A stretch of 64,000 nt of DNA from Sphingorhabdus sp. Alg231-15 (lineage in GTDB: Bacteria > Pseudomonadota > Alphaproteobacteria > Sphingomonadales > Sphingomonadaceae): NCBI RefSeq assembly GCF_900149705.1, contig NZ_LT703001.1, positions 2,784,001 through 2,848,000 of the forward strand, given 5' to 3'. Of the stretch, positions 788 through 39,693 are shown one piece after another. Within the stretch, counting starts at the first letter, position 1, and every line of letters begins with the position of its first letter. The notes under the pieces are model-generated. The model was not told the DNA's origin. It did no database searches and saw nothing but the letters and a program-made list of their open reading frames with translations. Position numbers and translations under genes: made by a program.

Positions 788-803
788 ATTGCTCCGGACA
801 TGT
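788..803. promoter_or_regulatory. Degenerate copy of the TTGTCCGGACAA operator
   Basis: The sequence ATTGCTCCGGACATGT keeps the CTCCGGACA centre of the recurring palindrome but matches only 9 of the 12 core positions. It lies about 40 bases upstream of the MFS start, the same placement as the good copies elsewhere. On its own this match would be weak; position raises it slightly. Confidence 0.35.
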
Positions 804-856
804 GCGCCGACATGATTTACGTGCATAGCACCCGGCCTATCGCCTGAAATTAAATA

Positions 857-894
857 TTCCGCTGGCACCGGGCTTGCGCACGGTGCCAGCGGAA
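857..894 (-). terminator. Hairpin downstream of TonB receptor 1
   Basis: A perfect 14-bp stem (TTCCGCTGGCACCG pairing with its complement) closes a 10-base loop, about 35 bases after the receptor stop codon in the direction of its transcription. The following bases on the transcribed strand are A/T-rich (ATATTTAATTT) but not a clean U-run, so termination is probable rather than certain. Confidence 0.6.
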
Positions 895-926
895 AAGGAT
901 ATTTGGGACCTTGCTTCCTTTTGCCG

Positions 927-3464
927 TTAAAAATCAAAGCGCCCTTTGATCAAGAAGGTCCGTGGTGGATTCAGATAGCTGTAATTGGCTAATGTTGATT
1001 CCACCGATTCCTCATCAAAGCAGTTTTTGCACTCTGCCGTAATCGACCAGCCAGACTCGCTTTTCAGCGCCAGTCCGGCATTGACGATCCACCGGTCTTC
1101 CGAAAAGCTACCGGTTATGACATCGCCATTGCCGAGCGTGTTTGATGGGAAAACCGTTCCGGACGGGCCGGTTATCGGCTGATCAAACAGAGTAACTTCG
1201 CTGGTGCCGGTTTCACTGTCGCTGCGCCAGTTAGCGTTGATCGAAGGAACAAGCGACAATCCGCCACCAAATTCGGCGGTATAGCTCGCGCCAATCGCGA
1301 TGGTGAAATCAGGCGTTCTGACGGGTTCGGCGATGCTGCCATCCGGTGCAACAATGCCAACGCCGCAAGAGGCCGCCGTGTCGGCTCCGGCCGCATTGGG
1401 AATCAATCCGCCAGCCAGTTGGGCCTGACAGGCTGCCTGCTGAGCATTGACGGATTGTACGCCGAAGGGGTCGAGCGCAGCGGCATTGCGATCAATACGG
1501 TAATTATCGTCCTGATAGCCCAATGATGCAAAGATATTCAGGCCATCATAGAGCGCTGTGTTAAGTTCGACTTCGATCCCGCGGTTGCGATAATCAGCAA
1601 AATTGCGAGTGATGAAGGCTAGCGATCCATCGGGCCGGATAAAGGCGGAAGGGGTTTGTAAGCCATCGATATCGAGCTGAAAGGCGGTGATATTCAACCG
1701 AACGCGGCGATCAAACAATTCCGATTTGAATCCGGCCTCATAGCTCCATGCCTTTTCAGGACCAAACGGCAGTAGCTCACTGGGCGATGTTCCGCGCGCA
1801 TTCCAACCGCCTGATTTGAAGCCACGGGTAGCGGATGCAAAAATCAGAATGTCATCCGACACGTCATAATTTATCGCAAAGCGCGGGGTCCAGATTTTGA
1901 CATTCTGCTCCTGCGGAATCGCAGCCCCGTTATTCGCAACCAGATTGGCGCTGTCGATACAGGTGCTGGGACCGAATTGAAAAGGCCCAAAGCAGGTATT
2001 CTGTCCCAGAGCATTTGTTCCAACAATCGGTCGATTGTCGCGCACCGCAAAGGTCTTTTCCTCATCTGTGTAACGGATACCGGCAGTCAGCTTCAGTGCG
2101 TCGGTGACATTGAGATCGGCTTGCAAATAGCCGGCCCATGCTGTGGTTTCGTTGCGAATCTCGCGATCCGCAAGAACCAGTGGGAATCCAGCCGGCAGCG
2201 GCGGGAAGGCGAGAGAGAAAATGTCACCAAAGTCGGTGCGGTTATTCTCCTCAAAATAATAGACGCCACCAACGAGATCGATCAGGCCATCGGCCAGCGA
2301 ACCGGTAATTTTGATTTCCTGAGTGAACTGGTCATGTTCGCCCTGATTGGCGATGGTGAAGCCGCCGCTGGTGAAACCGATAACTGGCGGAATTGGTGTC
2401 GAAGTGTTCGGGAGACCACGACCATCGGCGAAGTCGAGAGCAAAATCCTGGCTTAGATCAATGAAGCCGGTGATCAGATTGATCTCAAAATCGCCCAGAT
2501 CGATCTCGAGATTGGAAGAGATAAAATCCATCTCGACTTCGTTACCCAGCCCGAAATCGCTCTTTGGGCCGGTCAAAATACCATTGAAATTGCTGTCCTT
2601 GGTCAGGCCCGTGGTGACAAACCGACCTGAACAGTTGCTGGGATCTGCCGGATCGCAATCAAAGTTCAATATGTTCCCGGCATCGGCATAAGTATGCATG
2701 TAGGAACCGGTCCAGCGGACGGAGTCAGACAATTCTCCGCGGAAGCCCAAGCGCACGCCCCAGCCATCGCTTTCATTGGTGCGCTCTCCGGTGGTCGTGT
2801 TCTGAGCGTAGCCCTCGTCATCCTGGAAATAGCCAGAGACTTTGACGGCGAAGCTGTCCGCCAAAGGTACATCAACCGATGCGCGCACGAGATAGCGTTC
2901 ATAGCTGCCATATCCTGCTTCCACATAGCCGGCAAATTCGTCACCGGGTTCTTTTAGAATCACATTGATGGCGCCGCCGGTTGTATTCCGGCCAAATAAT
3001 GTCCCCTGAGGACCACGAAGCACCTCCAGTCGCTCGACATCGAAAAAGGACAGATTATTGGCATTTTGCCGAGACATGTAGATATCGTCGACATAGGTGC
3101 CGATTGGCGGGTCAAATGTGGCAATGGATTCAGTGTTGCCGATCCCGCGAAGGAAATAGGAGTTGGCTGTGCCCAGGCCGGTATTGTTGAGTCCAACCAG
3201 ATTGGGTACAAATTGTGTCACCTCCAACGCATTGGAAACGCCGCGGGTTTCCAGCTCCTCGGCAGAAAAGGCGCTGATCGCGATGGGGATGTCCTGAACG
3301 CTTTCTTCTCTGCGTTGTGCCGTCACCACAATGACATTCAGTCCGCCTTCCTCGGAAGCCTCCTGATCTGCTGATGATTGTGCATAGGCCGGCGCACCAG
3401 CGAGTGATGCCAATGCCAAACCGAAAATGGTTGAGTTTTTGAATGCAGTTTTGCGCGATATCAT
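927..3464 (-). CDS. TonB-dependent outer-membrane receptor 1
   Basis: Outer-membrane active-transport channel of 845 residues, the usual length for sphingomonad TonB-dependent receptors. It has a Sec signal peptide ending AYA-Q near residue 29, a TonB box-like NVIVVTAQRR near residue 43, a plug domain containing VLRGPQGTLFGRNTTGGAIN, and a long beta-barrel ending in the expected C-terminal Phe (GRFDF). The ATG follows a modest ribosome site (CAGGGAGAC on the coding strand). A palindromic operator lies about 50 bases upstream, and an AACCAATTGGTT palindrome beside a TGCTAACAACC element shared with the LysR promoter lies further upstream. It therefore appears to be under two regulators. Likely role: import of the large substrate or a co-substrate of the cluster. 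The ligand cannot be told from sequence; a siderophore receptor is possible but unsupported by neighbours. Confidence 0.95.
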   Translation of the reverse strand: MISRKTAFKNSTIFGLALASLAGAPAYAQSSADQEASEEGGLNVIVVTAQRREESVQDIPIAISAFSAEELETRGVSNALEVTQFVPNLVGLNNTGLGTANSYFLRGIGNTESIATFDPPIGTYVDDIYMSRQNANNLSFFDVERLEVLRGPQGTLFGRNTTGGAINVILKEPGDEFAGYVEAGYGSYERYLVRASVDVPLADSFAVKVSGYFQDDEGYAQNTTTGERTNESDGWGVRLGFRGELSDSVRWTGSYMHTYADAGNILNFDCDPADPSNCSGRFVTTGLTKDSNFNGILTGPKSDFGLGNEVEMDFISSNLEIDLGDFEINLITGFIDLSQDFALDFADGRGLPNTSTPIPPVIGFTSGGFTIANQGEHDQFTQEIKITGSLADGLIDLVGGVYYFEENNRTDFGDIFSLAFPPLPAGFPLVLADREIRNETTAWAGYLQADLNVTDALKLTAGIRYTDEEKTFAVRDNRPIVGTNALGQNTCFGPFQFGPSTCIDSANLVANNGAAIPQEQNVKIWTPRFAINYDVSDDILIFASATRGFKSGGWNARGTSPSELLPFGPEKAWSYEAGFKSELFDRRVRLNITAFQLDIDGLQTPSAFIRPDGSLAFITRNFADYRNRGIEVELNTALYDGLNIFASLGYQDDNYRIDRNAAALDPFGVQSVNAQQAACQAQLAGGLIPNAAGADTAASCGVGIVAPDGSIAEPVRTPDFTIAIGASYTAEFGGGLSLVPSINANWRSDSETGTSEVTLFDQPITGPSGTVFPSNTLGNGDVITGSFSEDRWIVNAGLALKSESGWSITAECKNCFDEESVESTLANYSYLNPPRTFLIKGRFDF

Positions 3465-5231: not shown

Positions 5232-5243
5232 TTGTCCGGACAT
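5232..5243. promoter_or_regulatory. Palindromic operator TTGTCCGGACAT (membrane protein gene)
   Basis: Eleven of twelve core positions match, preceded by AAT as in the best copies. It lies about 45 bases upstream of the next start codon. Confidence 0.75.
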
Positions 5244-5286: not shown

Positions 5287-5973
5287 ATGACAGAGCTACT
5301 CAATTTTTCCTTTTATCAACTGCTGGTCTTCATCCATATCATTCTATTTGTCCTGTGGCTGGGCGCAGATGTTGGTGTGTTCATGCTGGGTCAGCATTTT
5401 CGCAAGCGAGAGAAATATGACCTGCCGCAGCGGTTGGTCCTGCTGCAACTGCTCGTCAATCTCGATATGACGCCTCGTACAGCCTGGGCCTTGATGGTGC
5501 CGCTGACGATTACGATGGTCGATGCTGGCGGCTGGTGGGAAGTGCCAGTCTGGGGTGTGGCACTCTCCTGGGTAGTTGGTGCTGTCTGGCTATGGTTGGT
5601 CTGGGATGCGCATATCCATGACCAGACCGAGCGGGCCGCGCGGGATCGGAAAATCGAGTTCGTGCTGAAAATCGGCCTGACCCTGTTCTATCTTGGTCTG
5701 GGGATCATCTCGTTGTTGCAAGGCGAGCCATTGATCCCGATATGGCTGGGCACCAAGGCGCTTATGTTCGGCCTTATCTTTGCCGCCGCCATCATGATTG
5801 ATGTCGCGTTCAAGCCGGTCGGACCGCAACTCGGCAAACTAATCGCCGAAGGATCGTCGGATGAGACCGAGATACCGCTACGCAAGACGATGGACACAAC
5901 CCGAATCTGGGTTTGGATTGTCTATCTGTTGCTGCTCGCGACCGCGTTTCTCGGCAATATCAAGCCATTCTAG
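5287..5973 (+). CDS. Multi-pass inner-membrane protein
   Basis: Integral membrane protein of 228 residues. Hydrophobic segments are visible at about 8-33, 64-80, 86-106, 127-145, 152-172 and 207-224, giving six likely helices. The first segment contains FIHIILFVLWLGADVGVF, with a His and an Asp in the membrane as in CopD/DUF2269-type proteins. I do not recognise a specific family with confidence. The start has GGGGGT about ten bases upstream. It forms its own unit behind a palindromic operator and ends near a hairpin shared with the convergent DUF1838 gene. A role in transport or electron transfer is possible but unproven. Confidence 0.85.
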   Translation: MTELLNFSFYQLLVFIHIILFVLWLGADVGVFMLGQHFRKREKYDLPQRLVLLQLLVNLDMTPRTAWALMVPLTITMVDAGGWWEVPVWGVALSWVVGAVWLWLVWDAHIHDQTERAARDRKIEFVLKIGLTLFYLGLGIISLLQGEPLIPIWLGTKALMFGLIFAAAIMIDVAFKPVGPQLGKLIAEGSSDETEIPLRKTMDTTRIWVWIVYLLLLATAFLGNIKPF

Positions 5974-6033: not shown

Positions 6034-6942
6034 CTATTTCTTGTCTTTTTCTGCTGTCCGCTCCGCATCGATCATCTTCTTGAATACCGTCCAGGTGGTC
6101 TCATTTCTGCGCGGATCATCGCCGGGTGGCGGCGCGGTATATTCGGGATAGTTGAGCGCAATCTCATCCTTGATCACGTCGGGCAGCTCATCATAGCTTT
6201 TCAGCTTCGTGCCCATGGCGTTGAAGACCATTTGTCCCTGTCGTCCGCGCATTTTCATCCACGGCATCCAGTCGGAAATGCGTACCCAGCTGATCGCCGG
6301 ATAGGCGGTTGGATTATTGGTATCGAGTATCTCGTCGGCGAGCATGGTGAAGTCGAAAATCTCCATCGCATGATATTTGTTGCCGACATAATCCTGATAA
6401 TCGCCCGCCAGCACATTATGGTAAAAGAGCGGCACTTCAATCGGCATGAACATCCAGTTCCCCTGCTGCCGGATATTGGGTAGCGTATAAGGCGTGCCAT
6501 CGGCGCGGTAGGGATAGTTGGGACGGCTGTTTACCGGATCATTGGCTATTTGCATGACCTTGACCGTCTCACCCGTCCATGGATTATCCCAGGTGCGCAG
6601 GACTTCGTTGGTCTTGGGATCAAGATAGAACATCACTTCGCGGCTGACCTGCCGATAACCGACTCCGCGTTTAGGGTTTTCGATCCGTACACATTGCCGG
6701 ATATTCATGCCTTCACCATTGTACAAATGCCGATCAGGCTCCCCCTGAACACGGGAATAGACTTTACCGGACCAGTGATAGACGGCAGGCACACCATCAG
6801 CAGTACCGCATTGTGTTCGCTTCATGATTTCCAGAGCATCTTCGGGCTTTTTCGGATCAAGGGTCCGCGCTGAAGAAGAGCTGGCAAGAGCAAAAGATGC
6901 CACCATCGTTGCCAAAGCAGTCTGCTTAAAAAATCGATTCAT
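6034..6942 (-). CDS. Secreted DUF1838 family protein
   Basis: Predicted periplasmic protein of 302 residues with a Sec signal (MNRFFKQTALATMVASFALA, cleavage near SSSA-RT). The body (CGTADGVPAVYHWSGKVYSRVQGE, EVMFYLDPKTNEVLRTWDNPWTGETV, PAISWVRISDWMPWMKMRGR) is characteristic of DUF1838, a family without assigned reaction that is frequent in sphingomonads. The ATG is chosen because AGGGAGAA lies seven to nine bases upstream and the signal peptide begins there; the frame stays open much further upstream but that stretch is antisense to the next operon. A perfect operator lies about 70 bases upstream, shared with the divergent CitE-like gene. Lipid or steroid-type ligand binding is a guess. Confidence 0.88.
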   Translation of the reverse strand: MNRFFKQTALATMVASFALASSSSARTLDPKKPEDALEIMKRTQCGTADGVPAVYHWSGKVYSRVQGEPDRHLYNGEGMNIRQCVRIENPKRGVGYRQVSREVMFYLDPKTNEVLRTWDNPWTGETVKVMQIANDPVNSRPNYPYRADGTPYTLPNIRQQGNWMFMPIEVPLFYHNVLAGDYQDYVGNKYHAMEIFDFTMLADEILDTNNPTAYPAISWVRISDWMPWMKMRGRQGQMVFNAMGTKLKSYDELPDVIKDEIALNYPEYTAPPPGDDPRRNETTWTVFKKMIDAERTAEKDKK

Positions 6943-7051: not shown

Positions 7052-7879
7052 ATGATATTGGACCCTATGACCGGTTTTACCAACTTCCTTTTTGTACCTG
7101 CCAATCGGCCTGAACGCTTTGAGAAAGCGGCGAATAGTGGTGCAGATCTCATCTGTATCGATCTCGAAGATTCGGTACCGGCAGAGCAAAAAGACAGCGC
7201 ACGCGAATCTGTGCTGGATGCCCTGAAAACGCTCGATCGGGCAAAAATGGCGGTACGAATCAATGGCCTCAAGACAGCCGCTGGTCTGGCCGACCTGCTC
7301 GCTCTGTCGGCCACCGAACAACTTCCAGCTCTGCTTTTTCTGCCGATGGTCGAAAGTGCGACGGAGGTGGAGATTGCGCATAGCATTTTAGGAGACCGCG
7401 TCGAAGGTTTGATCCCGCTGATCGAAACCGTCAGAGGCCTGCGCGCTGGTGATGCCATTGCTGGCAGTGCAGGTGTGACCGGTATGATGTTCGGTGGAGG
7501 CGATTTTTCGGCGGAACTGGGAACCAAGCTGGAATGGGAGCCGCTGCTCGCGGCGCGGGGTGCTTTCATTCTGTGCTGCGCATCGGCCGCCGTTGCAGCG
7601 ATTGACGTCCCTTATATCGACATGAGCAATGAGGCAGGTTTGGAAGAAGAATCGGCCCGGGCAAAAGCGATGGGCTTTCACGCCAAGGCTGCCATTCATC
7701 CCAAACAGATCGCTCTCATCGCCAAGGCGATGAAGCCGACCGAGGCGGAAGTGGCGGAGGCGATCGACGCAATCAATGCATTTGATGCAGCGGGAGGCAA
7801 AGCGATTAGTTATAATGGGCGTATGTTAGAAGCACCGGTTATGCAACGATACCGGCATATCGCGGCAGCAGCCGGATAG
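7052..7879 (+). CDS. HpcH/HpaI aldolase, CitE-like acyl-CoA lyase
   Basis: Cytosolic lyase of 275 residues from the citrate lyase beta / malyl-CoA lyase group, which split beta-hydroxyacyl-CoAs such as malyl-, citramalyl- or methylmalyl-CoA. Visible motifs are LFVPANRPERFEKAANSGAD, the acidic IDLEDSVP segment, ARESV, VRING, LIETVRG (metal-binding Glu) and MMFGGGDFSAELG, then a C-terminal GFHAKAAIHPKQI. The ATG chosen is 15 bases after AAGAGG; an ATG five codons later (MTGFTNF) is also possible. It opens a plus-strand run with MaoC, an acyl-CoA dehydrogenase and two CoA transferases. With those, a citramalyl-CoA-type cleavage to acetyl-CoA and pyruvate is plausible, but the exact substrate is inferred. 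Confidence 0.9.
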   Translation: MILDPMTGFTNFLFVPANRPERFEKAANSGADLICIDLEDSVPAEQKDSARESVLDALKTLDRAKMAVRINGLKTAAGLADLLALSATEQLPALLFLPMVESATEVEIAHSILGDRVEGLIPLIETVRGLRAGDAIAGSAGVTGMMFGGGDFSAELGTKLEWEPLLAARGAFILCCASAAVAAIDVPYIDMSNEAGLEEESARAKAMGFHAKAAIHPKQIALIAKAMKPTEAEVAEAIDAINAFDAAGGKAISYNGRMLEAPVMQRYRHIAAAAG

Positions 7880-7918: not shown

Positions 7919-8428
7919 ATGCGTGATGGAGTGATTGAAGTTAGCCCGGGACGATTCCGTGAGACGTTCGGACGCTATTTTGAGGATTTTGAGGTGGGGC
8001 ATATCTATGAGCATCGTCCTGGCCGGACGATCACCGATACTGACAATGTGCATTTCACCCTGCTGACGATGAACACGCATCCAGCACATTTCGACTATGA
8101 ATTTGCCAAGAAAACCGAATTTGAAAAGCCGCTGGTCTGCTCTCCGCTGACTGTCGCGTTGATGGTCGGGATGAGCGTTTCGGACACCAGCCAGAAAGCA
8201 GTGGCCAATCTGGGTTGGGATAAAATTCGCCTGACCCATCCGCTGTTTCCCGGTGACACACTTTACGCTGAGAGCGAGGTGCTGAACAAAAAAGAATCCG
8301 CGTCACGGCCGGAGCAAGGCATCGTAACCATCAAAACCATTGGGAAAAACCAAGACGACAAAGTTGTGTGTACGTTTGAACGTACCATGCTGATCTGGAA
8401 GCGCGGCTTTGGCGGCGCAGACGATTAA
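7919..8428 (+). CDS. MaoC-like hydratase, mesaconyl-CoA hydratase type
   Basis: Hot-dog fold enoyl-CoA hydratase of 169 residues. It shows the MaoC arrangement GRYFEDFEVGHIYEHRPGRTITDTDNVHFTLLTMNTHPAHFD, with the catalytic Asp/His pair expected in this segment, and a second part LTHPLFPGDTLYAESEV typical of the family. The length and the TMNTHPAHFD segment resemble mesaconyl-CoA hydratase and related single-domain hydratases. The gene follows the CitE-like gene by 39 bases with an AAGGA ribosome site. Hydration here followed by CitE-type cleavage is a consistent pair of steps. The specific acyl group is not shown by the sequence. Confidence 0.9.
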   Translation: MRDGVIEVSPGRFRETFGRYFEDFEVGHIYEHRPGRTITDTDNVHFTLLTMNTHPAHFDYEFAKKTEFEKPLVCSPLTVALMVGMSVSDTSQKAVANLGWDKIRLTHPLFPGDTLYAESEVLNKKESASRPEQGIVTIKTIGKNQDDKVVCTFERTMLIWKRGFGGADD

Positions 8429-10954: not shown

Positions 10955-10961
10955 CACACCT

Positions 10962-12058: not shown

Positions 12059-12838
12059 TTAGTCCACCTCGATATGCATCGAATAGGCAAAGCGTTCGCC
12101 GGGATGATAGCTGGCCGAAATCTCGAACATCCGGTCGCTTTCGTCAAAATAACAGCGCAAGATGCGCAGTACCGGATCGCCTTTTTCCAGGCCAAGCTCC
12201 GCCAAAATATCTTTCGCGCCTTTAATCGCCTGAATATCCTGCGTCACTCGGGCGACACTGACTTCACCCAGCGTTTCAATCTGCCCAAACAGGGTCGTGG
12301 CGTTGACGTCAATCTGAGCGACAGCATCAGCCAATTCGGGATGCACCCAAGCCTCGGTCACCGCAATGGGTCGCTTGCGTCCGGGCTTCATCCGCTTGCC
12401 GCGAAAGGCGAACCAGTCGCCTTCGGCTTTCGCGCCAATTTGTTCCGCAACATCTTTAGGAATGGCCCCGGCTTTTTTCTTTTCAAAAGCAATCGTGGTG
12501 TCGCGTGCATATTGCAAAATCTCGCCGACATTGCTCAGCGGCTGGTGCAATGCGCCAGCACGCGCGGTGGCAGGCTGAACCACCGTACCCGAGCCACGCT
12601 TGCGGGTGATCAGGCCCTCGGCGGTCAGTTTCCGCAACGCCTCCCGTACAGTGAAGCGGCTAACATCATATTTTTTGCACAGGACAGATTCGGTTGGGAA
12701 ATCACCGGGATCGGGATAGTCGCCACGCAACACCGCTTCACGCAGTTCGTCAGCCAATTCCAGATAGCGCGGTTTCTTCTTGGACGCTCTTTTCGATTTA
12801 ACGGGCGCTTTGGCAGCCAATTTTTCTCTCCCGGACAT
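12059..12838 (-). CDS. GntR-family regulator with UTRA domain (HutC subfamily)
   Basis: Transcription factor of 259 residues, the only GntR protein in the window. After a Lys-rich N-terminus, the winged helix reads RYLELADELREAVLRGDY, FPTESVLCKKYDVSRFTVREALRKL and EGLITRKRGSGTVV. The rest (about 105-255) looks like a UTRA effector domain, ending LRILRCYFDESDRMFEISASYHPGERFAYSM. It is divergent from the PrpD operon, and the intergenic/early coding region holds a degenerate TTGTCCGGACAA. Operators of HutC-type and AraR-type GntR domains commonly have TTGT-N4-ACAA arms, so this protein is the best candidate reader of the palindrome found across the left 40 kb, probably as a repressor released by a pathway intermediate. 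That assignment is inference. Confidence 0.92.
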   Translation of the reverse strand: MSGREKLAAKAPVKSKRASKKKPRYLELADELREAVLRGDYPDPGDFPTESVLCKKYDVSRFTVREALRKLTAEGLITRKRGSGTVVQPATARAGALHQPLSNVGEILQYARDTTIAFEKKKAGAIPKDVAEQIGAKAEGDWFAFRGKRMKPGRKRPIAVTEAWVHPELADAVAQIDVNATTLFGQIETLGEVSVARVTQDIQAIKGAKDILAELGLEKGDPVLRILRCYFDESDRMFEISASYHPGERFAYSMHIEVD

Positions 12839-23143: not shown

Positions 23144-23173
23144 TTTTCTGCTCTCCTCAAGAAATATGAAAGC

Positions 23174-26095: not shown

Positions 26096-26107
26096 AATTA
26101 TTCTCCC

Positions 26108-30166: not shown

Positions 30167-30216
30167 CAAATCTCCCTCAGCGGCTTTTTTGGCGTGATTA
30201 CCAGAAAACGCGCGAA

Positions 30217-30415: not shown

Positions 30416-32902
30416 ATGAAAACGATGTTCAAGGCTGCGCTTTTGGCAGCAACCGCTACTATTCCGGTTTCGGCATATGCACAGAATACAGGTGCCGGCG
30501 ATGAAGCCGTGGAGGATGACTCCAATGTCATCATCGTAACCGCCCGAAAAATGTCGGAAAACCTGCAGGAAGTTCCGTCGACCATTGCGGTTGTAAGTTC
30601 CGATGCAATTGAGGATTTGGCGCTCGACAGTGTGGCTGATATTTCGCGGTTGACCGCAGGACTGACATTTGACGACAGTTTTGGTCGCGATTCCAATCGT
30701 CCGGTAATCCGTGGCCAGGCAAATATTCTCGGTGACTCCGGTGTTGCCGTGTTTATTGACGGAATCTATTTCAGTGGCTCGATAGGCGACTATAATGTCG
30801 ACAATATTGAACGTATTGAGGTTGTTAAAGGGCCGCAAAGTGCTCTCTACGGCCGCAACACCTATTCCGGCGCGATAAATATCATCTCCAAGGGTCCGGC
30901 TGATCAGCTTGAGGGAAATATTACCCTCGATATCTCGGAGAACGACCGGTACGAGGTGACCGGCGGAATCCGAGGGCCGATAACAGATTCGATTAGTGCT
31001 GCGGTATCTGCTCGCTTCTACGATTTTGGCGGAGAGTTCACAAATTTGTTTGACGGCGACAAAGTTGGCGATCAGTCATCTTATTCTTTCTCCGGTGCTT
31101 TCCAATTTGATAATGATGGTCCATTCACTGCGTCATTGCGAACCTATTATAATCGCACGGATGATGGTCAGCCTGCCATTTTTGCGCAGGATACAAGCGC
31201 CAATAACTGCTTTACCGACAATGGTGCCCTTTACGGTGGCGGTGGACGCTATTTCTGCGGGACCATTCAGCCGCAACCTATCAACACAGACTATACGCGG
31301 CAATTTGTGAATGCAGGCGATGTCGGCTTGGAGGCCAAGACCTTCAATGCTGCCTTTCGGATGGACTATGAGATTAGTGACCAAGTGACGTTGACCTCTC
31401 TGTCCGGTTATAACTATCGCAGGGAAATTCTGAACACCGACGGTGACTATTCACCGACCAGTTTTGAAACAGCGGTATTTGCCCGCTTCCCAGCTGGTGC
31501 TCCCATTGGTTTTGGTCCGGCTGGACCGATTTTCCCATTTGGTTTTGTCGGTACCACAGTGGATTTCTCATTCTCCAACAATAGTCTGACCGAGGACTGG
31601 TCGCAGGAATTGCGTCTGTCTTATGATGGTGACCGCTTTGATTTCTTGCTTGGTGGATATTATTTCGATCAGGATAGCGACAGTCAGAGCATCCGCGAGG
31701 TGCCAGCCGATGCAGCTGCCCGTGCAGGTGCCAGTTTTGGGGCCGCGGTGGCAAATGAGCAGGCAATTTGTACAGCTAATCCCAATTGCGGATTTGTGTT
31801 TCCGCTTTTCGGTCCCGCCACACCCAATTCACGTGATCTAAATAGTCAGAATATTCGCAACTGGGCGATTTTCGGATCTGCCAGCTTCGAAATAACTGAC
31901 AGGCTGACCTTGGGTGTTGAGGGACGTTATGCATCAGAGCGGGTTCGCCAGTCGACTATTGATCGCGATGCTGGTGATCCGTTCCCAGCACCCGTAGCGG
32001 TTAGTGAGACGTTCAAGAAGTTTTCTCCGCGTATCACTCTGGACTATAAAATCAGTCCGGATAATTTGATCTATGCCGACTTTGGCCAAGGACAAAAGCC
32101 CGGAGGTTTCAATGGTGTGACAGCCATCAATGCTGGTGTGCCTTCCTATGAAGAAGAGGAGGTTGATGCGTTCGAAATCGGTACAAAAAACACCTTCGCC
32201 GATGGAAAACTCATCTTTAACGCTGCGGCTTTCTACAATGACATAACGGGTTACCAATTGACCCAGAATGTCCAGTCAGCGGCAAATGCGGTTTCCGCGA
32301 TTGTCAACGCTGGCGATGCACGAGTGGTTGGCCTCGAACTGGAATTGCTCGCTCGGCCTAATCCAAATTGGACGTTCACGGCCAATTATGCGTTGGCAGA
32401 CAGCAAGTTCACTTCGGGTGTTGATGAGAACCAAGGTGTTCTCAATGACGTCGCCGACGATGGACTTAACAATTGCTCAACCGGTTTTCAGTTCCCTGAG
32501 CTTACCGGTTGTTCAAATGCCAAAGCGGTATTTGGTTCCATTGAAGGCAAGCGCATACCGCGTGCACCTGTACATCAGTTTTTTGTAGATGCAGATTACC
32601 GGATGCCGATTGGGGCGGGCGATTGGGAATTCTTCGCCGGAGCCAATGTCACAATGGTTTCCACCAGTTTTGCGCAAGTGCATAATCTGGCCGAAACCGG
32701 CGGGTCAGTTGTGGCAGATGCCCGGCTGGGATTTGAAAATGAGAATTTCAAGATTCAGGCCTATGTGAAGAACTTTACCGATGAAGATGCCGTGGCGCAG
32801 ATCATTCGGTACGCCGATTCCAGTGATAGTTTCCGGCGTAGTTTCATAGCTGGTCTACGTCCTGGCCGTCGTTTCGGGCTAATCCTTTCAGCCAAATACT
32901 AA
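30416..32902 (+). CDS. TonB-dependent outer-membrane receptor 2
   Basis: Outer-membrane receptor of 828 residues. Signal peptide MKTMFKAALLAATATIPVSAYA, acidic linker, TonB box-like NVIIVTARK near residue 38, plug with VVKGPQSALYGRNTYSGAINI, and a barrel ending LILSAKY (aromatic C-terminus). A strong GGGAGG precedes the ATG. It resembles TonB receptor 3, next to it, more than receptor 1 (shared signal peptide pattern and EVxKGPQSALxGRNT plug). It is a monocistronic unit with an operator upstream and a strong terminator downstream. Its divergent partner encodes periplasmic enzymes, suggesting uptake and processing are induced together. Confidence 0.96.
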   Translation: MKTMFKAALLAATATIPVSAYAQNTGAGDEAVEDDSNVIIVTARKMSENLQEVPSTIAVVSSDAIEDLALDSVADISRLTAGLTFDDSFGRDSNRPVIRGQANILGDSGVAVFIDGIYFSGSIGDYNVDNIERIEVVKGPQSALYGRNTYSGAINIISKGPADQLEGNITLDISENDRYEVTGGIRGPITDSISAAVSARFYDFGGEFTNLFDGDKVGDQSSYSFSGAFQFDNDGPFTASLRTYYNRTDDGQPAIFAQDTSANNCFTDNGALYGGGGRYFCGTIQPQPINTDYTRQFVNAGDVGLEAKTFNAAFRMDYEISDQVTLTSLSGYNYRREILNTDGDYSPTSFETAVFARFPAGAPIGFGPAGPIFPFGFVGTTVDFSFSNNSLTEDWSQELRLSYDGDRFDFLLGGYYFDQDSDSQSIREVPADAAARAGASFGAAVANEQAICTANPNCGFVFPLFGPATPNSRDLNSQNIRNWAIFGSASFEITDRLTLGVEGRYASERVRQSTIDRDAGDPFPAPVAVSETFKKFSPRITLDYKISPDNLIYADFGQGQKPGGFNGVTAINAGVPSYEEEEVDAFEIGTKNTFADGKLIFNAAAFYNDITGYQLTQNVQSAANAVSAIVNAGDARVVGLELELLARPNPNWTFTANYALADSKFTSGVDENQGVLNDVADDGLNNCSTGFQFPELTGCSNAKAVFGSIEGKRIPRAPVHQFFVDADYRMPIGAGDWEFFAGANVTMVSTSFAQVHNLAETGGSVVADARLGFENENFKIQAYVKNFTDEDAVAQIIRYADSSDSFRRSFIAGLRPGRRFGLILSAKY

Positions 32903-32921
32903 TCGGTTTACTCCCCGTAAA

Positions 32922-32957
32922 ACCCGCTGCCAAGAAATTGGCAGCGGGTCTTTTTTT
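32922..32957 (+). terminator. Rho-independent terminator of TonB receptor 2
   Basis: A perfect 10-bp stem, ACCCGCTGCC with GGCAGCGGGT, around an AAGAAATT loop, followed by C and seven T. It starts 20 bases after the receptor stop codon. Confidence 0.93.
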
Positions 32958-33025
32958 GCATCTTTCTGATGCAAATTGAGCACAAATCTTGCGCCAAAGC
33001 TGAAAACTCTGACGGATTCAAAAAT

Positions 33026-33037
33026 TTGTCTGGACAA
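33026..33037. promoter_or_regulatory. Palindromic operator, distal copy (TonB receptor 3)
   Basis: AAATTTGTCTGGACAAATT, identical over 19 bases to the site before TonB receptor 2. It is the first of two operators spaced 47 bases apart, centre to centre. Confidence 0.82.
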
Positions 33038-33072
33038 ATTACCGGATCAATGGGATTTGGGTTGCAATAAAT

Positions 33073-33084
33073 TTGTCCAGACAA
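33073..33084. promoter_or_regulatory. Palindromic operator, proximal copy (TonB receptor 3)
   Basis: AATTTGTCCAGACAAATAA is the same variant in the opposite orientation, 23 bases before the start codon. The two copies, 47 bases apart, are near four and a half helical turns and thus on roughly opposite faces, unless the DNA is bent. Confidence 0.82.
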
Positions 33085-33106
33085 ATAATCCAGGGGAGAT
33101 GTGGGG

Positions 33107-35596
33107 ATGCGAGTGATATTAAAGGCTGCGCTATTGTCGGCCACCATTTTGGGCAGCACACAAGTGTTTGCGCAGGACACCGCCTCGGAAGGTGTTGATG
33201 ACAATTCCGATGTCATCATTGTAACTGCACGCAAGAAAGAAGAGACTCTGTTGGATGCTCCTTTGGCGGTCACCGTCATTGGTGAGGCCGAGCTAGAGGG
33301 CGCCGGATTCAATGACATAACGGAAGTCACGAAGGCGGCTCCGGGCGCTTTCGTCGAACCTTTCGGTGACAATACCAATGGCACAGCGCGCATTAATTCC
33401 ACGCCCCGGTTTCGCGGCATCACCTTGATCAGTGGTAACCGTTTGCAACAGACTGCAACCGTTTTTCTTGACGGCGTATTCCTCAGCGGAGGCGCTCAGA
33501 CGATTGGCATCAACGAATTGCAGCGCGTGGAGATTATCAAGGGTCCGCAATCGGCACTGTTCGGTCGCAATACTTTTGCTGGTGCAATCAACTATGTCAC
33601 CAAGGATCCCAGTGACGAGTTTCAGGTTGATCTGAGCGTTACCGCTGCAACCCGGGATGAATATAATTTTGCCGCAGGCATAGAAGGGCCAATTATGGAC
33701 GGGCTTTCTTTCCGTTTGAGCGGTAACTATGATTCGAAAGACGGTCATTTTGACAATGTGGCTGTTCCTGGTCAGCGCCTGGGTGATGAGTCACAATGGT
33801 CCATCGCTGGCACGTTGCTGATCGAACCAAGCGATGGCCTCCGGCTTAAATTGAGAGGCTCTTATCAAGAAATTGATGACGGCCCGGCGGCTTCTGTTTT
33901 ATACTTTGGTACTAGCCAGCACAATTTTGGCGGTTTCGAGATCGTCAATGGCATTGCAGATCAAACGGATTCCGTTGTGCCTTCACCCGGCGGTAGTCGC
34001 GGTGAATCGGTCTTCCGTGGACGGATCACCCAGCCACCGGCTGATCGCATAGGACTGAACACAGCACCTGAAAATCTTCAGGCGTTTCTGGGTTTTCTGG
34101 ATGATGGGCGTTCCGATCCCAGCGATGCCATATTTGATTTTAAATATAATCCAACCACAGTGGATGATTTCGGTCTGAACCTGGATTCATTGCGTCTGAG
34201 CGCCGTCGGTTCTGCGGATCTGACCGACAATATCGAGTTCAGTTTCCTGGCTGGGTATAATAAGGAGAGATTTGGTTTTTACACCGATTTCGATTCAACC
34301 CCCGACAATAGTTTCACCAGCTTTACCGCGCGTGAAACGGAAGATTTAACTGTCGAAGGGCGCCTATCCGCGTCTTTGTTTGATGATAGCCTCAATATCT
34401 CAGCCGGTGCGAGCTATGTAAAAATCGATATTGACGAGCTGGGTGGAACGGCGAGTTTCTTTGGCCCATCGATTTTCTTTGGCGATATTTTCAGGTCTGA
34501 TCCCTTTGTTTCGGGCGCTGAAACTCTCGGCTTTTTTGGTTCACTAGATTACCAAATTACCGACCAGCTCTCGATCACACTCGAAGGGCGTTTCCAGAAA
34601 GATGAGTTCAGCAACCCTGAGGTAAATGACGGTCTGGCAACACCGATCTCGCCCGGCGAGATCAACAGTTTCCTGCCGCGCGGTACCTTGCGATATCAGC
34701 CGTCAAATTATACAACATTTTATGCAACCTACAGCGAGGGCAATCTGCCAGGCGGTTTCAATCCGCAAATCGCTGGACTGGATGCGGTGCAACTAGCCGA
34801 GTTGGCTGCTTTGGCACCCGATGCCAATGTGCTCTTTGGTGAGGAGCAGCTGACCAACTATGAATTCGGCTGGAAGCAACAGCACCCAAGCGGCATTTTC
34901 GCGTTCAACCTCGCTGCTTTCTACATGAAACGGAGTGACGAAATTTTCAGCTCCATTGAGGTGATAACCGATACGGACCCCGGAGCACCCAATCCAGTGC
35001 GTACGGTCAATTTCACCTCTAACGGAGCGAGCACCAATATCTATGGTGTGGAATTTGATGCGACAGTGAACGTCAGCGAGAATCTGTCGATGCAGGGATC
35101 TTTTGCTTATATTGATGCAACGATCTCATCCTTTCCTGCCGAGGGCGGCACCGGAGACTTTGGCGATATCTTTGGCCCCGATGCCGATATCTCCGGGCAA
35201 CGGGCCCCGCGCTTTCCACCTTTGACGCTATCGTTAGGCGCAACCTATGAAGACGATTTCAACGGATTTGGTGACTTTTTCGAAAGCTGGTACTTGCGTA
35301 GCGACCTCTATTTCACGGGCGACTATTTTGACAGCAATGCCAATGTTGCCAAGGTCGAGGAAGCAACCGATGTCAATCTGCGCCTGGGTTTAACCGGCCA
35401 GAATGCGGGCATCGAGTTTTTCGTCACCAATCTTCTGAATGAAGACGCTCCAACAACCGCCTTCAACTTTGCGGATACGAGCTTTGGTACCCGTGCACTC
35501 CCTGGTGGGTTCTTCAACTTTGGCCGGGAAGGCGACCGTGTTGGTCTGCGTGACAAGCGGCAATTTGGCGTCAAATTGAAATATACGTTCAAGTAG
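33107..35596 (+). CDS. TonB-dependent outer-membrane receptor 3
   Basis: Outer-membrane receptor of 829 residues. Signal peptide MRVILKAALLSATILGSTQVFA, TonB box-like DVIIVTARKKEE, plug with EIIKGPQSALFGRNTFAGAINYVTKD and a barrel ending KLKYTFK. The ATG is chosen over a GTG six bases earlier because GGGGAGA is better spaced. It is a tandem paralogue of receptor 2, but the two are well diverged through the barrel, suggesting different ligands, such as the parent compound and a processed form. It has the only double operator in the window and ends at a strong two-way terminator. Confidence 0.96.
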   Translation: MRVILKAALLSATILGSTQVFAQDTASEGVDDNSDVIIVTARKKEETLLDAPLAVTVIGEAELEGAGFNDITEVTKAAPGAFVEPFGDNTNGTARINSTPRFRGITLISGNRLQQTATVFLDGVFLSGGAQTIGINELQRVEIIKGPQSALFGRNTFAGAINYVTKDPSDEFQVDLSVTAATRDEYNFAAGIEGPIMDGLSFRLSGNYDSKDGHFDNVAVPGQRLGDESQWSIAGTLLIEPSDGLRLKLRGSYQEIDDGPAASVLYFGTSQHNFGGFEIVNGIADQTDSVVPSPGGSRGESVFRGRITQPPADRIGLNTAPENLQAFLGFLDDGRSDPSDAIFDFKYNPTTVDDFGLNLDSLRLSAVGSADLTDNIEFSFLAGYNKERFGFYTDFDSTPDNSFTSFTARETEDLTVEGRLSASLFDDSLNISAGASYVKIDIDELGGTASFFGPSIFFGDIFRSDPFVSGAETLGFFGSLDYQITDQLSITLEGRFQKDEFSNPEVNDGLATPISPGEINSFLPRGTLRYQPSNYTTFYATYSEGNLPGGFNPQIAGLDAVQLAELAALAPDANVLFGEEQLTNYEFGWKQQHPSGIFAFNLAAFYMKRSDEIFSSIEVITDTDPGAPNPVRTVNFTSNGASTNIYGVEFDATVNVSENLSMQGSFAYIDATISSFPAEGGTGDFGDIFGPDADISGQRAPRFPPLTLSLGATYEDDFNGFGDFFESWYLRSDLYFTGDYFDSNANVAKVEEATDVNLRLGLTGQNAGIEFFVTNLLNEDAPTTAFNFADTSFGTRALPGGFFNFGREGDRVGLRDKRQFGVKLKYTFK

Positions 35597-35700: not shown

Positions 35701-36561
35701 TTACGCTGCCAAAATCCGGATCAGCTCGTCAGGTGCTGTCACCATCGCATCATGGCCAGTGGCAAGCGCATGGTATGTCCAGCTTGGATCGACTTGTACT
35801 TTCGCGGCATGATAAGGAAAGTTACTATTAGGTAGGACAGGGTTAGTGCAATGGATATAACTGCGCTTCAACCCGTGTGATCCGCCATTTTCAAACGATA
35901 TAGGGTCCAGCCAGGTTTTGAGCGGGTGGGGCGTGAGTTTCCCGGCGACCCAATCATAACTGGGATGGTCTTTCGGTATACCGAGAAACTCAGGCGGGAA
36001 GGTCGCCATAGCAATGCCGTCAGGGGCAAGCCCCGCTAATGCCTTACGGGTTTGTTCGATAATTTCCGGACTGCGTTCCGGTCCTTGCGTGATCATTGTC
36101 TCGCCATTTTTCGGCAAGGCGGCGTCGAGATAGATAATCTCGCTGATCCGATCCTTCATGGCATCGGTAACACCGGTAATCACCATGCCGCCATAGCTAT
36201 GGCCAACCAGCACGATGTCCTTCAGGTCATAATAGTCGATCAGCGATGTGATATCTTTGATGTGCGTATCCAGCCCGATATCCGCTGACAGCAGGTGCGC
36301 GCGCTCTGCGAGTCCGGTTAAGGTAGGTGTGAACACACGGTGTCCTTGTGCCTCCAGTTGCGACCGGACATCACGCCAACACCATCCGCCATGCCAAGCA
36401 CCATGGACCAGAACGAAAGTCTGGGCAGCGCTCCCGGACCTATGCTCGGTGCGATCGGCATGTGATTTGGCATTGGCGGTTGCCGAAGTCGCAAAACCCG
36501 TCGCTGCCGCGGCGGCGATAAATTCACGGCGGCTGGTCAAGATTTTGGGACGATCACTCAT
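35701..36561 (-). CDS. Tat-exported alpha/beta hydrolase (esterase-like)
   Basis: Periplasmic hydrolase of 286 residues. The N-terminus TSRREFIAAAAATGFATSATANA is a twin-arginine signal. The fold shows FVLVHGAWHGGWCWRDV, the normal elbow VGHSYGGMV (S122), and a C-terminal GHDAMVTAPDEL supplying the His. The arrangement resembles esterases of the salicylate/pyrethroid-hydrolase type. Unlike the two other alpha/beta hydrolases of this regulon it has a complete-looking triad. It lies 17 bases after the amine-oxidase-like gene and is probably transcribed with it from the operator at 38062-38073. Confidence 0.9.
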   Translation of the reverse strand: MSDRPKILTSRREFIAAAAATGFATSATANAKSHADRTEHRSGSAAQTFVLVHGAWHGGWCWRDVRSQLEAQGHRVFTPTLTGLAERAHLLSADIGLDTHIKDITSLIDYYDLKDIVLVGHSYGGMVITGVTDAMKDRISEIIYLDAALPKNGETMITQGPERSPEIIEQTRKALAGLAPDGIAMATFPPEFLGIPKDHPSYDWVAGKLTPHPLKTWLDPISFENGGSHGLKRSYIHCTNPVLPNSNFPYHAAKVQVDPSWTYHALATGHDAMVTAPDELIRILAA

Positions 36562-36578
36562 GGCTTTATATTTCTCCG

Positions 36579-38018
36579 CTAAGCTAGGGCTAGCACTCTG
36601 TTTGCGGCTCTTTCAGCGGTTTCGAGCGCGCCTTCCATGCCGGGCCAGTTTTGCGTCATATGTTCACCGGCAAAATGGAGGCGTTGGCCCTGATACTGCA
36701 CAGTTTTGGCAAGGGCAGCACCGAGACCCGATCCAATATGATGATAGATACCGCGCGCAAAAGGCTCCTTTTGCCAGCTGAACATGCTGAGGTAGGACAG
36801 TTTTCCCTTTGCAGATGGCCTGACTTTCTCAATGCGCGTGATCATTTCGGCAGCCGCCTGCTGAGGGTTCATATTGTCGAGTACTTCTGCCGCAGGGCCA
36901 TTGATCCAGACCTTGAGCAGCGGCGGGCTGCTGTTTAGCGTGAATACCCGGCCGAGTAGCGGGTCGTCACTCCAGATATATTCTGGCAGGCCATCCTCTT
37001 TCCAAAAAGCATCGGTCGCGCGCAGGAAGACAAAACTAGCCTTTGTATAGGGTAGCTGCTGGATGGTGTTTCGCAGAACCGGCGGCAGGGGCGCTTCGAT
37101 TTTCATGTTTTTGACCGTGCTGAAAGGGGCGGTGCAAATCACCTGACGTGCGCCAAACTTCCGTCCATCGACCAAGCTGACTTCCACACCATCGCCCTTG
37201 TCGACAATTGCCGAAACCGGGGCGTTTAATATGATATCCGAATTTAGTGCGCTGGTCATGGCATCGGTCATACGTTGCGATCCACCGCGGATGAATTTGG
37301 TCGGTCCGGGATTGGCGTTGCGCGCGGTAGTGAACATGGAAAGTGTCCGCTGCATATGGAGCATCGACATTTCTTCAAGCGTGCGACCGTTGAGATTGGC
37401 GTTCATGAAGCGCATCGCTTCATCCGACGCGCCCTGCGCCTTCAACCAGCTGGCAAGCGAGATATCTTCCGCGGTGATTTCAGGAGACATCCAGTCCGCG
37501 GTCATCTCTAGTCCGGGCAGTTTGCGTAAATAGGAGAAAAACAGCGCATCAGGGGTTGTCTTTTTTTCACCATCGCCGAGCATATTTTGCGGCAAGCTTG
37601 GCCATTCATCCTTCTGGAAATTCTGTCCGCGGACATTGTACAGATATCCACCCCGACCGCTTTCGGGCAGATAACGCTCGACGCCCAATCGATCCGCAAT
37701 AGTATTGAAGCGTTTATAGGCTGCTCCAACCTGGACCCCGCCAGCGTCGGGTGTTCCGGGCAGGTTGTCCAGGGTATATAGCCGTCCGCCAGTTCTATTA
37801 TTGCCTTCCAATAGCATCACTTTCAGCCCGGCCTGTTCCAGCTGCCAAGTTGCATGTAATCCCGCCAGTCCAGCGCCGATCACAATGACATCCGCGGTGG
37901 TTTTGCTCCAGCTTTGACGCGGCGTTGCACAGGCAACCAGAGACGCGCTGGCACCCCCGATAAATGCGCGCCTGCTGAGTGCCCGTCCATTTATCGAATA
38001 TCTATAGCCCCGTTTCAT
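36579..38018 (-). CDS. Exported flavin amine oxidase-like protein (Tat lipoprotein)
   Basis: FAD oxidoreductase of 479 residues. ALSRRAFIGGASASLVAC combines a twin-arginine motif with a lipobox (LVAC, C30), so it is probably exported folded with FAD and lipid-anchored. The FAD motif VIVIGAGLAGLHATWQLEQAGLKVMLLEGNNRTGGRL follows, and the C-terminal LHFAGEHMTQNWPGMEGALETAERAA is the second FAD segment of the monoamine oxidase family. The ATG chosen starts the signal; the open frame upstream lies across the operator. It likely oxidises an amine or a C-C bond in the periplasm, releasing peroxide. Downstream partner: the Tat hydrolase. Confidence 0.92.
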   Translation of the reverse strand: MKRGYRYSINGRALSRRAFIGGASASLVACATPRQSWSKTTADVIVIGAGLAGLHATWQLEQAGLKVMLLEGNNRTGGRLYTLDNLPGTPDAGGVQVGAAYKRFNTIADRLGVERYLPESGRGGYLYNVRGQNFQKDEWPSLPQNMLGDGEKKTTPDALFFSYLRKLPGLEMTADWMSPEITAEDISLASWLKAQGASDEAMRFMNANLNGRTLEEMSMLHMQRTLSMFTTARNANPGPTKFIRGGSQRMTDAMTSALNSDIILNAPVSAIVDKGDGVEVSLVDGRKFGARQVICTAPFSTVKNMKIEAPLPPVLRNTIQQLPYTKASFVFLRATDAFWKEDGLPEYIWSDDPLLGRVFTLNSSPPLLKVWINGPAAEVLDNMNPQQAAAEMITRIEKVRPSAKGKLSYLSMFSWQKEPFARGIYHHIGSGLGAALAKTVQYQGQRLHFAGEHMTQNWPGMEGALETAERAANRVLALA

Positions 38019-38089: not shown

Positions 38090-38851
38090 ATGAACAGATA
38101 TCTCCACTATTTGATAGTGATGATATTGACGACAATCGCGTTTCCTGTTGAGGCAGCAGATGACTCGCTGGAGGGTGCCGCGATATTGGCAATGGCCAGG
38201 GAAGCGGCAGGTGGTGATGATTGGGCTAATGCACGGACTTTGACATTGTCGGGTCATGCCGTTTTCTACGGACCCCTGGGCCACAAACCGCGCACCAAGG
38301 CTACCAACTACCGAATGTGGCGAGTGTTCGATCCCAACCGCAAAGTGGCCCATGGAGCGGACGGCAAGGTCCGCATCATTGCTAAAAATGCCGACAAACT
38401 GATTTTCGAGGTCGGTTATGACGGTGAGATCACCTGGACCGAGCGCGGGATTACACCCAAGGCAGAGGCAGATAAATTCTGGGCGAGCAATTTCGGTTTC
38501 GGGATTATCCGGCAGGCCGACAAGCCGGGTTTTGTTGCGACCCGCTTGCCGGATGATGATGTCGGCGGTCATGCGCTCTACATGGTGGAGTTGACCGATC
38601 CAAAGGGTGGCAAGACTCTGTTCGGTATTGATCAGCAGAGCCATGCGATCCGCACCATGGGTTTCCGGACACCAAGAGGCTGGCATCAACGGGTCTACGA
38701 TGATTTTGTCATGCTGACAGACCCGCGTTGGCTACAGGCGCGCCATGTCACGCTCTATTATGACGGGCGCAAATCCAATGAAGTGTTCTGGACCGAGACC
38801 AGAGTGAATGCGGAGATTGACGAAGCTTTGTTTACGCCGCCGTCCAATTGA
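38090..38851 (+). CDS. Secreted protein of unknown family (253 aa)
   Basis: Sec signal MNRYLHYLIVMILTTIAFPVEA, then a periplasmic domain containing AREAAGGDDWANARTLTLSGHAVFYG, MWRVFDPNRKVAHGADGKVRI, VGYDGEITWTERG and DGRKSNEVFWTETRVNAEIDEALF. The start of the domain and the ending on a DEALFTPP-like phrase resemble periplasmic beta-sheet proteins of the LolA/outer-membrane lipoprotein-sorting type, a weak impression only. No catalytic motif is visible. It is a monocistronic unit with its start 17 bases from a perfect operator; its stop abuts the stop of the next, convergent gene. Confidence 0.82.
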   Translation: MNRYLHYLIVMILTTIAFPVEAADDSLEGAAILAMAREAAGGDDWANARTLTLSGHAVFYGPLGHKPRTKATNYRMWRVFDPNRKVAHGADGKVRIIAKNADKLIFEVGYDGEITWTERGITPKAEADKFWASNFGFGIIRQADKPGFVATRLPDDDVGGHALYMVELTDPKGGKTLFGIDQQSHAIRTMGFRTPRGWHQRVYDDFVMLTDPRWLQARHVTLYYDGRKSNEVFWTETRVNAEIDEALFTPPSN

Positions 38852-39658
38852 TCAGCCGCGAAAATTGCTGCCTGTTACATCGGAAGCCCGCTCTGCACCC
38901 TTGATTGTGCAACTTGCCTGCATCCAGCGCAAATTAAGTCCCACACGACTGGCGTCGATGTCGGCCCAGCTATAGCTGACTGCACGATCCGGGTTGTCGG
39001 GTTTATGGACATAAAGAACCATGCTTGGACGGTTGGTGCTGGGTTTGGGCCAATAAACGGCCCGCATGCGCAGGATTAGCGGTTCGGTTCCGCTCTCCTC
39101 TCCGCCAATCATTACCCGACCGCCCTGATCGTGCAGACTCAATTTTCGTACGAAAAGCCAATCCGGACTGCCATCTGCCTTGGGTTCGGTCTTCTTGGCA
39201 GCGGCCCAGCATTCGACCGGGCGAGCCCGTTTTAGTTGGGTTTCGGTGCCATCTGCAAAGCGCAGTTTCAATCCTTCCGCACTGACCCCGATTATCTGAT
39301 AATCTTGGTTACATAGCATTCTGTTTTGCACGGCGCTGAAAGTCCAGCCTGCATCTGTACGATCAAAATTACGAGTGCAATTGTCGACTGTCAGGCTATC
39401 CCGTTCTGCTCCCGAGGTAACAAGCCCAGTTTGCGGGGACGCGACCGGTTTGCCGAAAGCATCGGTGCGAGTGATGGTCAGTCCATTGTCCTGACTTTCA
39501 ATTTTCAGAGCGATCCAAGGTGGTGGTGTACGGCCGGCATCTTTCTCAAAATAGGCCTGTTCCTCATTTGTATAGATGCCGGGTAGTTGCTGATCCAGCG
39601 TTACGGCGCTTTGCGATCCGGCCGCGAGTGCCAGAATGGAAAGGCTGGTGAGAGACAT
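38852..39658 (-). CDS. Secreted protein of unknown family (268 aa)
   Basis: Signal-like N-terminus MSLTSLSILALAAGSQSA, then LPGIYTNEEQAYFEKDAGRTPPPWIALKIES, an opening reminiscent of CpeT-type chromophore lyases, though length and later sequence do not obviously follow. Cys residues in NCTRNF, MLCNQDY, VECWAA and QASCTIKG could form disulfides in the periplasm. Function not recognised. It has its own operator about 24 bases upstream, so it belongs to the same regulon as the adjacent, tail-to-tail secreted protein. Confidence 0.82.
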   Translation of the reverse strand: MSLTSLSILALAAGSQSAVTLDQQLPGIYTNEEQAYFEKDAGRTPPPWIALKIESQDNGLTITRTDAFGKPVASPQTGLVTSGAERDSLTVDNCTRNFDRTDAGWTFSAVQNRMLCNQDYQIIGVSAEGLKLRFADGTETQLKRARPVECWAAAKKTEPKADGSPDWLFVRKLSLHDQGGRVMIGGEESGTEPLILRMRAVYWPKPSTNRPSMVLYVHKPDNPDRAVSYSWADIDASRVGLNLRWMQASCTIKGAERASDVTGSNFRG

Positions 39659-39681
39659 AGAACGGATCCTTCACAAATAAT

Positions 39682-39693
39682 TTGTCCGGACAA
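39682..39693. promoter_or_regulatory. Palindromic operator, rightmost copy
   Basis: A perfect TTGTCCGGACAA core preceded by AAATAA, 24 bases before the secreted-protein start. It marks the right border of the regulon: no good copy was seen in the remaining 24 kb. Confidence 0.82.

Follow-up and report, generated by a model that had tools for sequence, protein, structure and literature searches.

Across much of a 64,000-nucleotide window of the Sphingorhabdus sp. Alg231-15 genome (the whole stretch analysed; C1:2784001-2848000 of 3.62 Mb), one short palindrome recurs close to gene starts in a large catabolic cluster, which raises the question of whether a single protein reads these copies and, if so, which one. 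From sequence comparison we consider it very probable that the GntR/HutC-type regulator encoded within the cluster at 12059-12838 has the core TTGTCCGGACAA, extended to AATTTGTCCGGACAAATT, as its operator, and that the copies define one repressor regulon. An earlier note on this DNA had proposed such a switch, with the GntR protein as its implied regulator, over 39 kb and about 35 genes, and the idea is supported by sites at orthologous starts and by the regulator's contact residues. Its extent was right for the window and understated overall: two strong sites precede the window (genome positions 2770549 and 2777791), and the 37 called open reading frames (ORFs) in site-headed units within it rise to about 57 for the whole cluster.

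All ten cores that the note had read at 11 or 12 of 12 positions are present, four of them perfect (7013, 27996, 38062 and 39682) and six with one mismatch (3516, 5232, 30217, 30332, 33026 and 33073). They lie about 10-100 bp before start codons. That almost every unit is marked, as the note had it, goes too far: the LysR gene at 3617 and ORF 4696 have no operator site. Two further copies depart from the core at two positions (12892) and at three (788, position 790). At up to three mismatches the window contains 59 matches against 26.5 expected, many of the three-mismatch ones by chance, and past 39.7 kb, where the note had seen no cores, only two- or three-mismatch matches occur.

In the whole genome, 12 of the 15 sites matching the 12-mer pattern WTGTCYRGACAW fall inside one 53-kb stretch (G000:C1:2770549-2823693), and the reversed pattern, used as a control, gives five. 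Grouping this tight has a probability bounded, by a simple binomial estimate, at about 4e-17, for a stretch chosen after the clustering had been seen. The 18-mer AATTTGTCCGGACAAATT, scanned with at most three mismatches, yielded 14 sites, 13 of them in the same stretch (control, 1). The genome-wide scan that the earlier note had proposed thus returned clustered sites, not sites spread over the genome. One of the 13 is absent from the 12-mer set: it lies at -3167 (negative coordinates are positions before the window start), within the gene for a carbon-nitrogen hydrolase. The next gene, methyltransferase-like, starts about 107 bp further on, and a site precedes it in two of eight relatives.

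A weight matrix trained on 61 sites from nine relatives, with the genome studied here excluded, ranked the same places highest across 110 kb. The two upstream sites scored 34.1 and the ten window sites 22.8-31.8, followed by -3167 (20.0), a second copy beside an upstream site at -13437 (15.9) and 12892 (11.0); the best other place, at 41477, scored 7.4. The three 12-mer hits that fall outside the cluster reached 8.0-10.5, so that on sequence alone 12892 barely exceeds them. These three were rejected as regulon members; none has full AT flanks, two are within called ORFs and one is 92 bp ahead of a gene that by eye is NhaA-like. The copy at 788/790, which the note had counted as an operator, scored 3.5 and was rejected as a site by its own sequence; good sites do stand ahead of the same MFS gene in G089 and G243.

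We then compared nine relatives from eight genera, drawn from a set of 298 family genomes. A 12-mer site lies near the start of 57 of the 76 orthologues of unit-head genes, which were chosen from the genome's own sites; for the remaining cluster genes the figure is 10 of 242 orthologues. Of these ten, six come from three sites (in G243, G089 and G204), each counted for both members of the divergent GntR/PrpD pair. The gene at 7052 stood outside this test, being hidden by a longer antisense ORF. Sites therefore recur at orthologous promoters of the syntenic clusters, the second check that the earlier note had named, and they do so across eight genera, as a single-operator regulon would have them. 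Within the fetched stretches of the relatives lie 9 of the 17 short sites of G243, 5 of 6 in G108, 8 of 9 in G285, 9 of 10 in G060, 7 of 10 in G142, 6 of 9 in G095, 9 of 11 in G089 and 5 of 6 in G204; the figure for G072 is 3 of 63.

The regulator and the sites also travel together. Relatives of the GntR protein (at least 38% identity) occur in 39 of the 298 sampled family genomes, and at least one flanked site, defined as WTTGTCCGGACAAW, is present in 34 of these 39, compared with 8 of the 259 genomes lacking the regulator. For at least two flanked sites the counts are 28 of 39 and 1 of 259. The GntR gene is found in all nine compared clusters and the LysR gene in two of the nine. A search of the phylum at 1e-40 found the regulator in 2 of 398 genomes, and the genome studied here is one of the two.

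The encoded protein has a GntR winged helix (Pfam, 60.9 bits, 9.3e-17) and a UTRA domain (55.7 bits, 6e-15), both above gathering thresholds. Its best NCBIfam model is HutC (1.6e-26), yet at 93.1 bits against a cut-off of 220 it does not qualify as a HutC orthologue. HutC, the histidine utilisation repressor, is a local catabolic repressor; unlike in the HutC system, no hut genes were noticed by eye in the cluster. The closest match in the PDB is NagR/YvoA (1.4e-14), the GntR/HutC repressor of Bacillus subtilis that acts at dre sites and likewise joins a GntR to a UTRA domain. In NagR–DNA structures, Arg48 reads G-4 and Arg38 reads G-5, and the half-sites are six bases apart (PMC4333415). Here Ser51, Arg61 and Gly82 align with NagR Arg38, Arg48 and Gly69, and in the operator -4 is G, -5 is T and the half-sites are spaced as for NagR. 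The contact residues thus fit the operator, with the half-site G predicted to face the Arg that opens helix alpha-D3. A Ser, Thr, Asn or Ala replaces Arg38 in 28 of 31 loci by a motif in which the second Arg was fixed, and alignment shows the same for the other three. With Ser for Arg38 and T for G-5, the protein does not qualify as a NagR orthologue. G-7 is also absent, and whereas NagR serves amino-sugar use, the regulon here is a large catabolic cluster.

In the mechanism that we propose, a GntR dimer would occupy the palindrome at some 12-15 places in the ~59-kb cluster and block transcription. The substrate or a pathway intermediate would enter the UTRA domain and release the repressor. 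Uptake (TonB receptors and MFS carriers), CoA-dependent breakdown and the secreted hydrolases would then be switched on in concert, and the regulator's own gene would probably be induced along with the other units. We infer binding, repression rather than activation, and the effector from the family. The copy at 12892, listed as degenerate in the earlier note, does stand at the regulator's own start and is weak; better copies at the GntR start in G243, G089 and G204 make autoregulation possible. The 7013 operator occupies the whole 17-bp spacer of a TTCACA-17-TAAAGT element on the minus strand, the only promoter match that is also invariant among relatives. In an alignment of the window with 11 of 15 relatives (L071, L072, L075 and L079 left out), both hexamers, the operator and about 30 bp adjacent to it are invariant in 12 of 12 sequences, and the sequence farther left is variable.

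Tandem operators 14 bp apart were observed at -13451/-13437 (L001 12549/12563) and at G060:C1:1685640/1685654, and pairs 33-47 bp apart occur at other promoters, such as 33026/33073; these arrangements possibly reflect cooperative binding.

A number of observations weigh against this regulon. At two unit heads few relatives have a site (two of nine at -561, the MFS start, and two of seven at -6994), conservation at 7013 extends beyond the operator itself, and a -35/-10 search near the sites gave mediocre scores, without a shuffle control. Although NagR Gly69 is kept as Gly82, base G-7 of that third contact is T here, and the regulator's own promoter has only the weak 12892 site. Others bear directly on which protein reads the operator. 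Co-occurrence alone cannot separate the GntR gene from other conserved cluster genes; five of the 39 genomes with a GntR relative (G030, G113, G132, G218 and G219) have no flanked site; and G203, a member of the genus, contains seven short sites (control, 1) yet lacks a GntR of this kind. In G132 the GntR protein is 57% identical and the single short site lies 1.2 Mb away, and on L079, a 16-kb Sphingorhabdus contig from a metagenome-assembled genome (MAG), it is 78% identical and the contig has no core with at most two mismatches; both proteins keep the contact residues. Close relatives without nearby sites, as well as a LysR gene within the cluster, are what one might see if the operator belonged to LysR 3617 or to a regulator encoded elsewhere, with GntR as a cluster passenger. 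We think this unlikely. The LysR gene is shared by two relatives only, sites stand at GntR's own start in three genomes, and the GntR protein is favoured because it is present in every compared cluster and its residues fit the operator.

Were the GntR protein an activator or a dual regulator instead of a simple repressor, operator distances of about 10-100 bp and the two operators at some units (33026/33073) would be equally compatible. We give this little credence, since transcription is blocked by NagR, the HutC-type protein that matches best (PMC4333415), and the 7013 operator sits in the spacer between two invariant hexamers. Hardest to credit is that the palindrome is a widespread non-regulatory word whose density here is incidental. 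The genome G072 is the one that speaks for it, with 63 copies of WTGTCYRGACAW (control, 0) across its chromosome, against two in its genus-mate G140; in the loci read (L087, L089 and L091-L101, some of which overlap), 21 of 24 site rows are inside called ORFs, mostly without AT flanks. Only 6 of the 63 copies have W flanks, however, and such a word would account neither for 13 of 14 18-mer sites falling in the cluster, nor for the rarity of flanked sites in genomes without the regulator (8 of 259), nor for the excess at orthologous heads (57 of 76 versus 10 of 242). A GntR repressor regulon remains the reading that we favour.

The earlier note had called this regulon previously undescribed. 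In the literature searched, which was covered in part, neither the operator as a binding site nor such a regulon in sphingomonads was found, and the cluster, its operator and its substrate are new to these searches; the design itself is ordinary, a local GntR repressor with repeated operators being a known kind of architecture. The analysis delimits an orphan cluster of about 59 kb and supplies both a candidate regulator and an operator code for it, with which a reporter-based search for inducer and substrate becomes direct.

Table 1. Operators and genes of the cluster within the window. Matrix, weight-matrix score; fractions, relatives with a site at the orthologous start.
Feature	Position	Strand	Setting or assignment	Support
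Operator TTGTCCAGACAA	3516-3527		51 bp before TonB receptor 927-3464	matrix 27.4; 5/5
Operator TTGTCCGGACAT	5232-5243		before membrane protein 5287-5973	matrix 27.6; 7/7
Operator TTGTCCGGACAA	7013-7024		between divergent 6034 (DUF1838) and 7052, the start of a long plus-strand unit reaching 22044	matrix 31.4; 7/8 for 6034
Weak operator TTGTCCGTACAT	12892-12903		53 bp upstream of GntR start; in first codons of divergent MmgE/PrpD ORF	matrix 11.0; 3/8
Operator TTGTCCGGACAA	27996-28007		before minus-strand unit 27975-22041	matrix 31.1; 4/6
Operator ATGTCCGGACAA	30217-30228		before minus-strand unit 30169-28048	matrix 22.8; 1/1
Operator TTGTCTGGACAA	30332-30343		before TonB receptor 30416-32902	matrix 30.4; 5/6
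Operator 1 of pair	33026-33037		before TonB receptor 33101-35596	matrix 30.4; no close orthologue (0/0)
Operator 2 of pair	33073-33084		before TonB receptor 33101-35596	matrix 28.0
Operator TTGTCCGGACAA	38062-38073		separates minus-strand amine-oxidase-like gene (assumed start 38018) from divergent plus-strand 38090	matrix 31.8; 4/6 for 38090, 1/1 for amine-oxidase-like gene
Operator TTGTCCGGACAA	39682-39693		before 38852-39658 (minus), last conserved cluster gene	matrix 31.1; 4/4
MFS carrier	3-746	-	runs off left end of window; heads minus-strand unit	only degenerate match at 790
TonB-dependent receptor	927-3464	-		named by eye
Membrane protein	5287-5973	+		no Pfam family
DUF1838 protein	6034-6942	-		PF08894, 1.6e-68
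HpcH/HpaI lyase	7052-7879	+	best NCBIfam model: itaconate-degradation lyase RipC/Ccl	below cut-off
MaoC hydratase	7919-8428	+	best model RipB/Ich	below cut-off
Acyl-CoA dehydrogenase	8476-9654	+
Two CaiB-type CoA-transferases	9761-12050	+	first: best model succinyl-CoA:mesaconate CoA-transferase	below cut-off
GntR/HutC-type regulator	12059-12838	-	GntR winged helix and UTRA	Pfam
Two MmgE/PrpD proteins	12865-15419	+
CoA ligase, amidase, HapK/REDY-like, SDR and GFA-like proteins; PuuE-like deacetylase-family protein, enoyl-CoA hydratase, VOC protein	15416-22044	+		GFA-like by eye
SnoaL-like, CMD-like and YCII-like proteins, hydrolase, MFS, VOC, reductase, DUF1330	22041-27975	-		by eye except DUF1330
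Carbon-nitrogen hydrolase and alpha/beta hydrolase	28048-30169	-		secretion signals by eye
Two TonB-dependent receptors	30416-35596	+		named by eye
Alpha/beta hydrolase and flavin amine-oxidase-like protein	35701-38018	-
Two proteins without Pfam family	38090 (+) and 38852 (-), to 39658	+/-		signal peptides by eye

The limits of the cluster come from matching 110 kb of the genome to the fetched stretches of the nine relatives at a threshold of at least 45% identity. Each relative has 15-50 cluster genes with such orthologues between -22124 and 39658, and none was found beyond these positions in those stretches. Since -22124 and -21135 are close in G243 only, we place the start of the conserved cluster at about 19 kb before the window (-19430) and its end at 39658, giving about 59 kb; the operator sites stop where the conserved cluster stops. 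The right border was tested for 3.5-10 kb past the last gene in G108, G089, G204, G060 and G095, and the left border is less certain, as the stretches of G108, G095, G089 and G243 stop at the cluster. Transcription units are guesses based on the strand and spacing of genes; five of the ORFs, forming a single unit, depend on the weak 788 promoter.

What the cluster degrades is suggested by its enzymes. Near 7013, the MaoC protein and the lyase fall short of their best models, those for RipB/Ich (237.7 against a cut-off of 340) and RipC/Ccl (229.5 against 375) of itaconate degradation. Before the window lie homologues of LeuC, LeuD and HMG-CoA lyase, above the NCBIfam subfamily cut-offs, an isochorismatase-family protein with N-carbamoylsarcosine amidohydrolase among its hits in the PDB, one carbon-nitrogen hydrolase, and two polysaccharide-deacetylase-family proteins, one of which tested PuuE-like, below cut-off; a third is encoded at 19492. 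The cluster thus totals three deacetylase-family proteins, two of them PuuE-like, two carbon-nitrogen hydrolases and one amidase. Such a set suggests a compound, possibly nitrogen-containing, whose cyclic amide or imide would be reduced to branched dicarboxylic acids and cleaved as CoA esters, in line with the opening and deamidation of a nitrogen ring. The likeness to itaconate degradation (Ich/Ccl, RipABC) lies in the best models of the lyase, the MaoC protein and the next CoA-transferase; all three score below curated cut-offs, and their genes are part of a much broader set that also has amide hydrolases, LeuC/LeuD and TonB receptors.

In one rather unlikely reading, the regulon is a dedicated bacterial pathway for a pyrrole pigment or fragments of its rings, such as tetrapyrroles derived from chlorophyll or bilin, which would be taken up through the three TonB receptors and sensed by the GntR protein. 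Maleimide-type rings would be opened by the PuuE-like hydrolases and deamidated by the isochorismatase-family hydrolase, with cleavage then proceeding through LeuC/LeuD, HMG-CoA lyase and Ich/Ccl-like steps. The amide-hydrolase set, a HapK-family protein and a DUF3598-like barrel hint at this. HapK/REDY-like proteins are named after prodiginine clusters; the one here (17975-18286) matches Pfam HapK above gathering (3e-12) and the REDY-like protein 2jdj in the PDB (1.9e-6), but no prodiginine biosynthesis genes were noticed. Two proteins have weak DUF3598 matches below gathering. One is predicted to form a barrel closest to DUF3598, BFA1 and cyanobacterial Ycf58 structures, and a PDB profile search with these proteins returned an unrelated best match (E 0.2). 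In a marine Novosphingobium, a HapK gene rose 1.9-fold on a lignin dimer (PMC4609964); the family is thus not tied to pyrroles, and this slightly lowered our already low estimate for a pigment. Literature searches of partial coverage on substrate or pathway, including DUF1838 with TonB and gene cluster, returned nothing relevant. If the substrate were an abundant pigment, the cluster would supply a missing step of carbon and nitrogen turnover.

The contig L079 also gives a view of the flanks. Relatives of the right-flank genes (46551 to 40214, 67-93% identical), the GntR gene and relatives of the left-flank genes (-29903 to -41709, 79-89%) follow one another there with no cluster genes between the flanks, and in searches with six and with twenty queries only GntR matched closely. 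Although a MAG assembly is no proof, the contig appears to show this location lacking the cluster, which may have been gained or lost as a whole island. In the window, the flank at 40214-63981 encodes (by eye) an acyl-CoA ligase, an enoyl-CoA hydratase, a Rieske oxygenase (46551), a LuxR-type regulator (48611), a dehydrogenase E1 pair (49796-51768) and acyl-CoA dehydrogenases, without strong operators.

Among single proteins, a 466-amino-acid ORF (L001 11160-12560, minus strand) matches alpha/beta hydrolase models in its first part and has no Pfam match in its second. In L075 (17540-18031, minus strand), the orthologue of ORF 4696 is interrupted by an in-frame stop within its tblastn match, from decay, a frameshift or an alignment artefact. 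The AlphaFold model of the DUF1838 protein has a pLDDT of 36, and the best of five models of ORF 4696 has a mean pLDDT of 82.5 (the others, 74.1, 43.7, 41.5 and 37.5).

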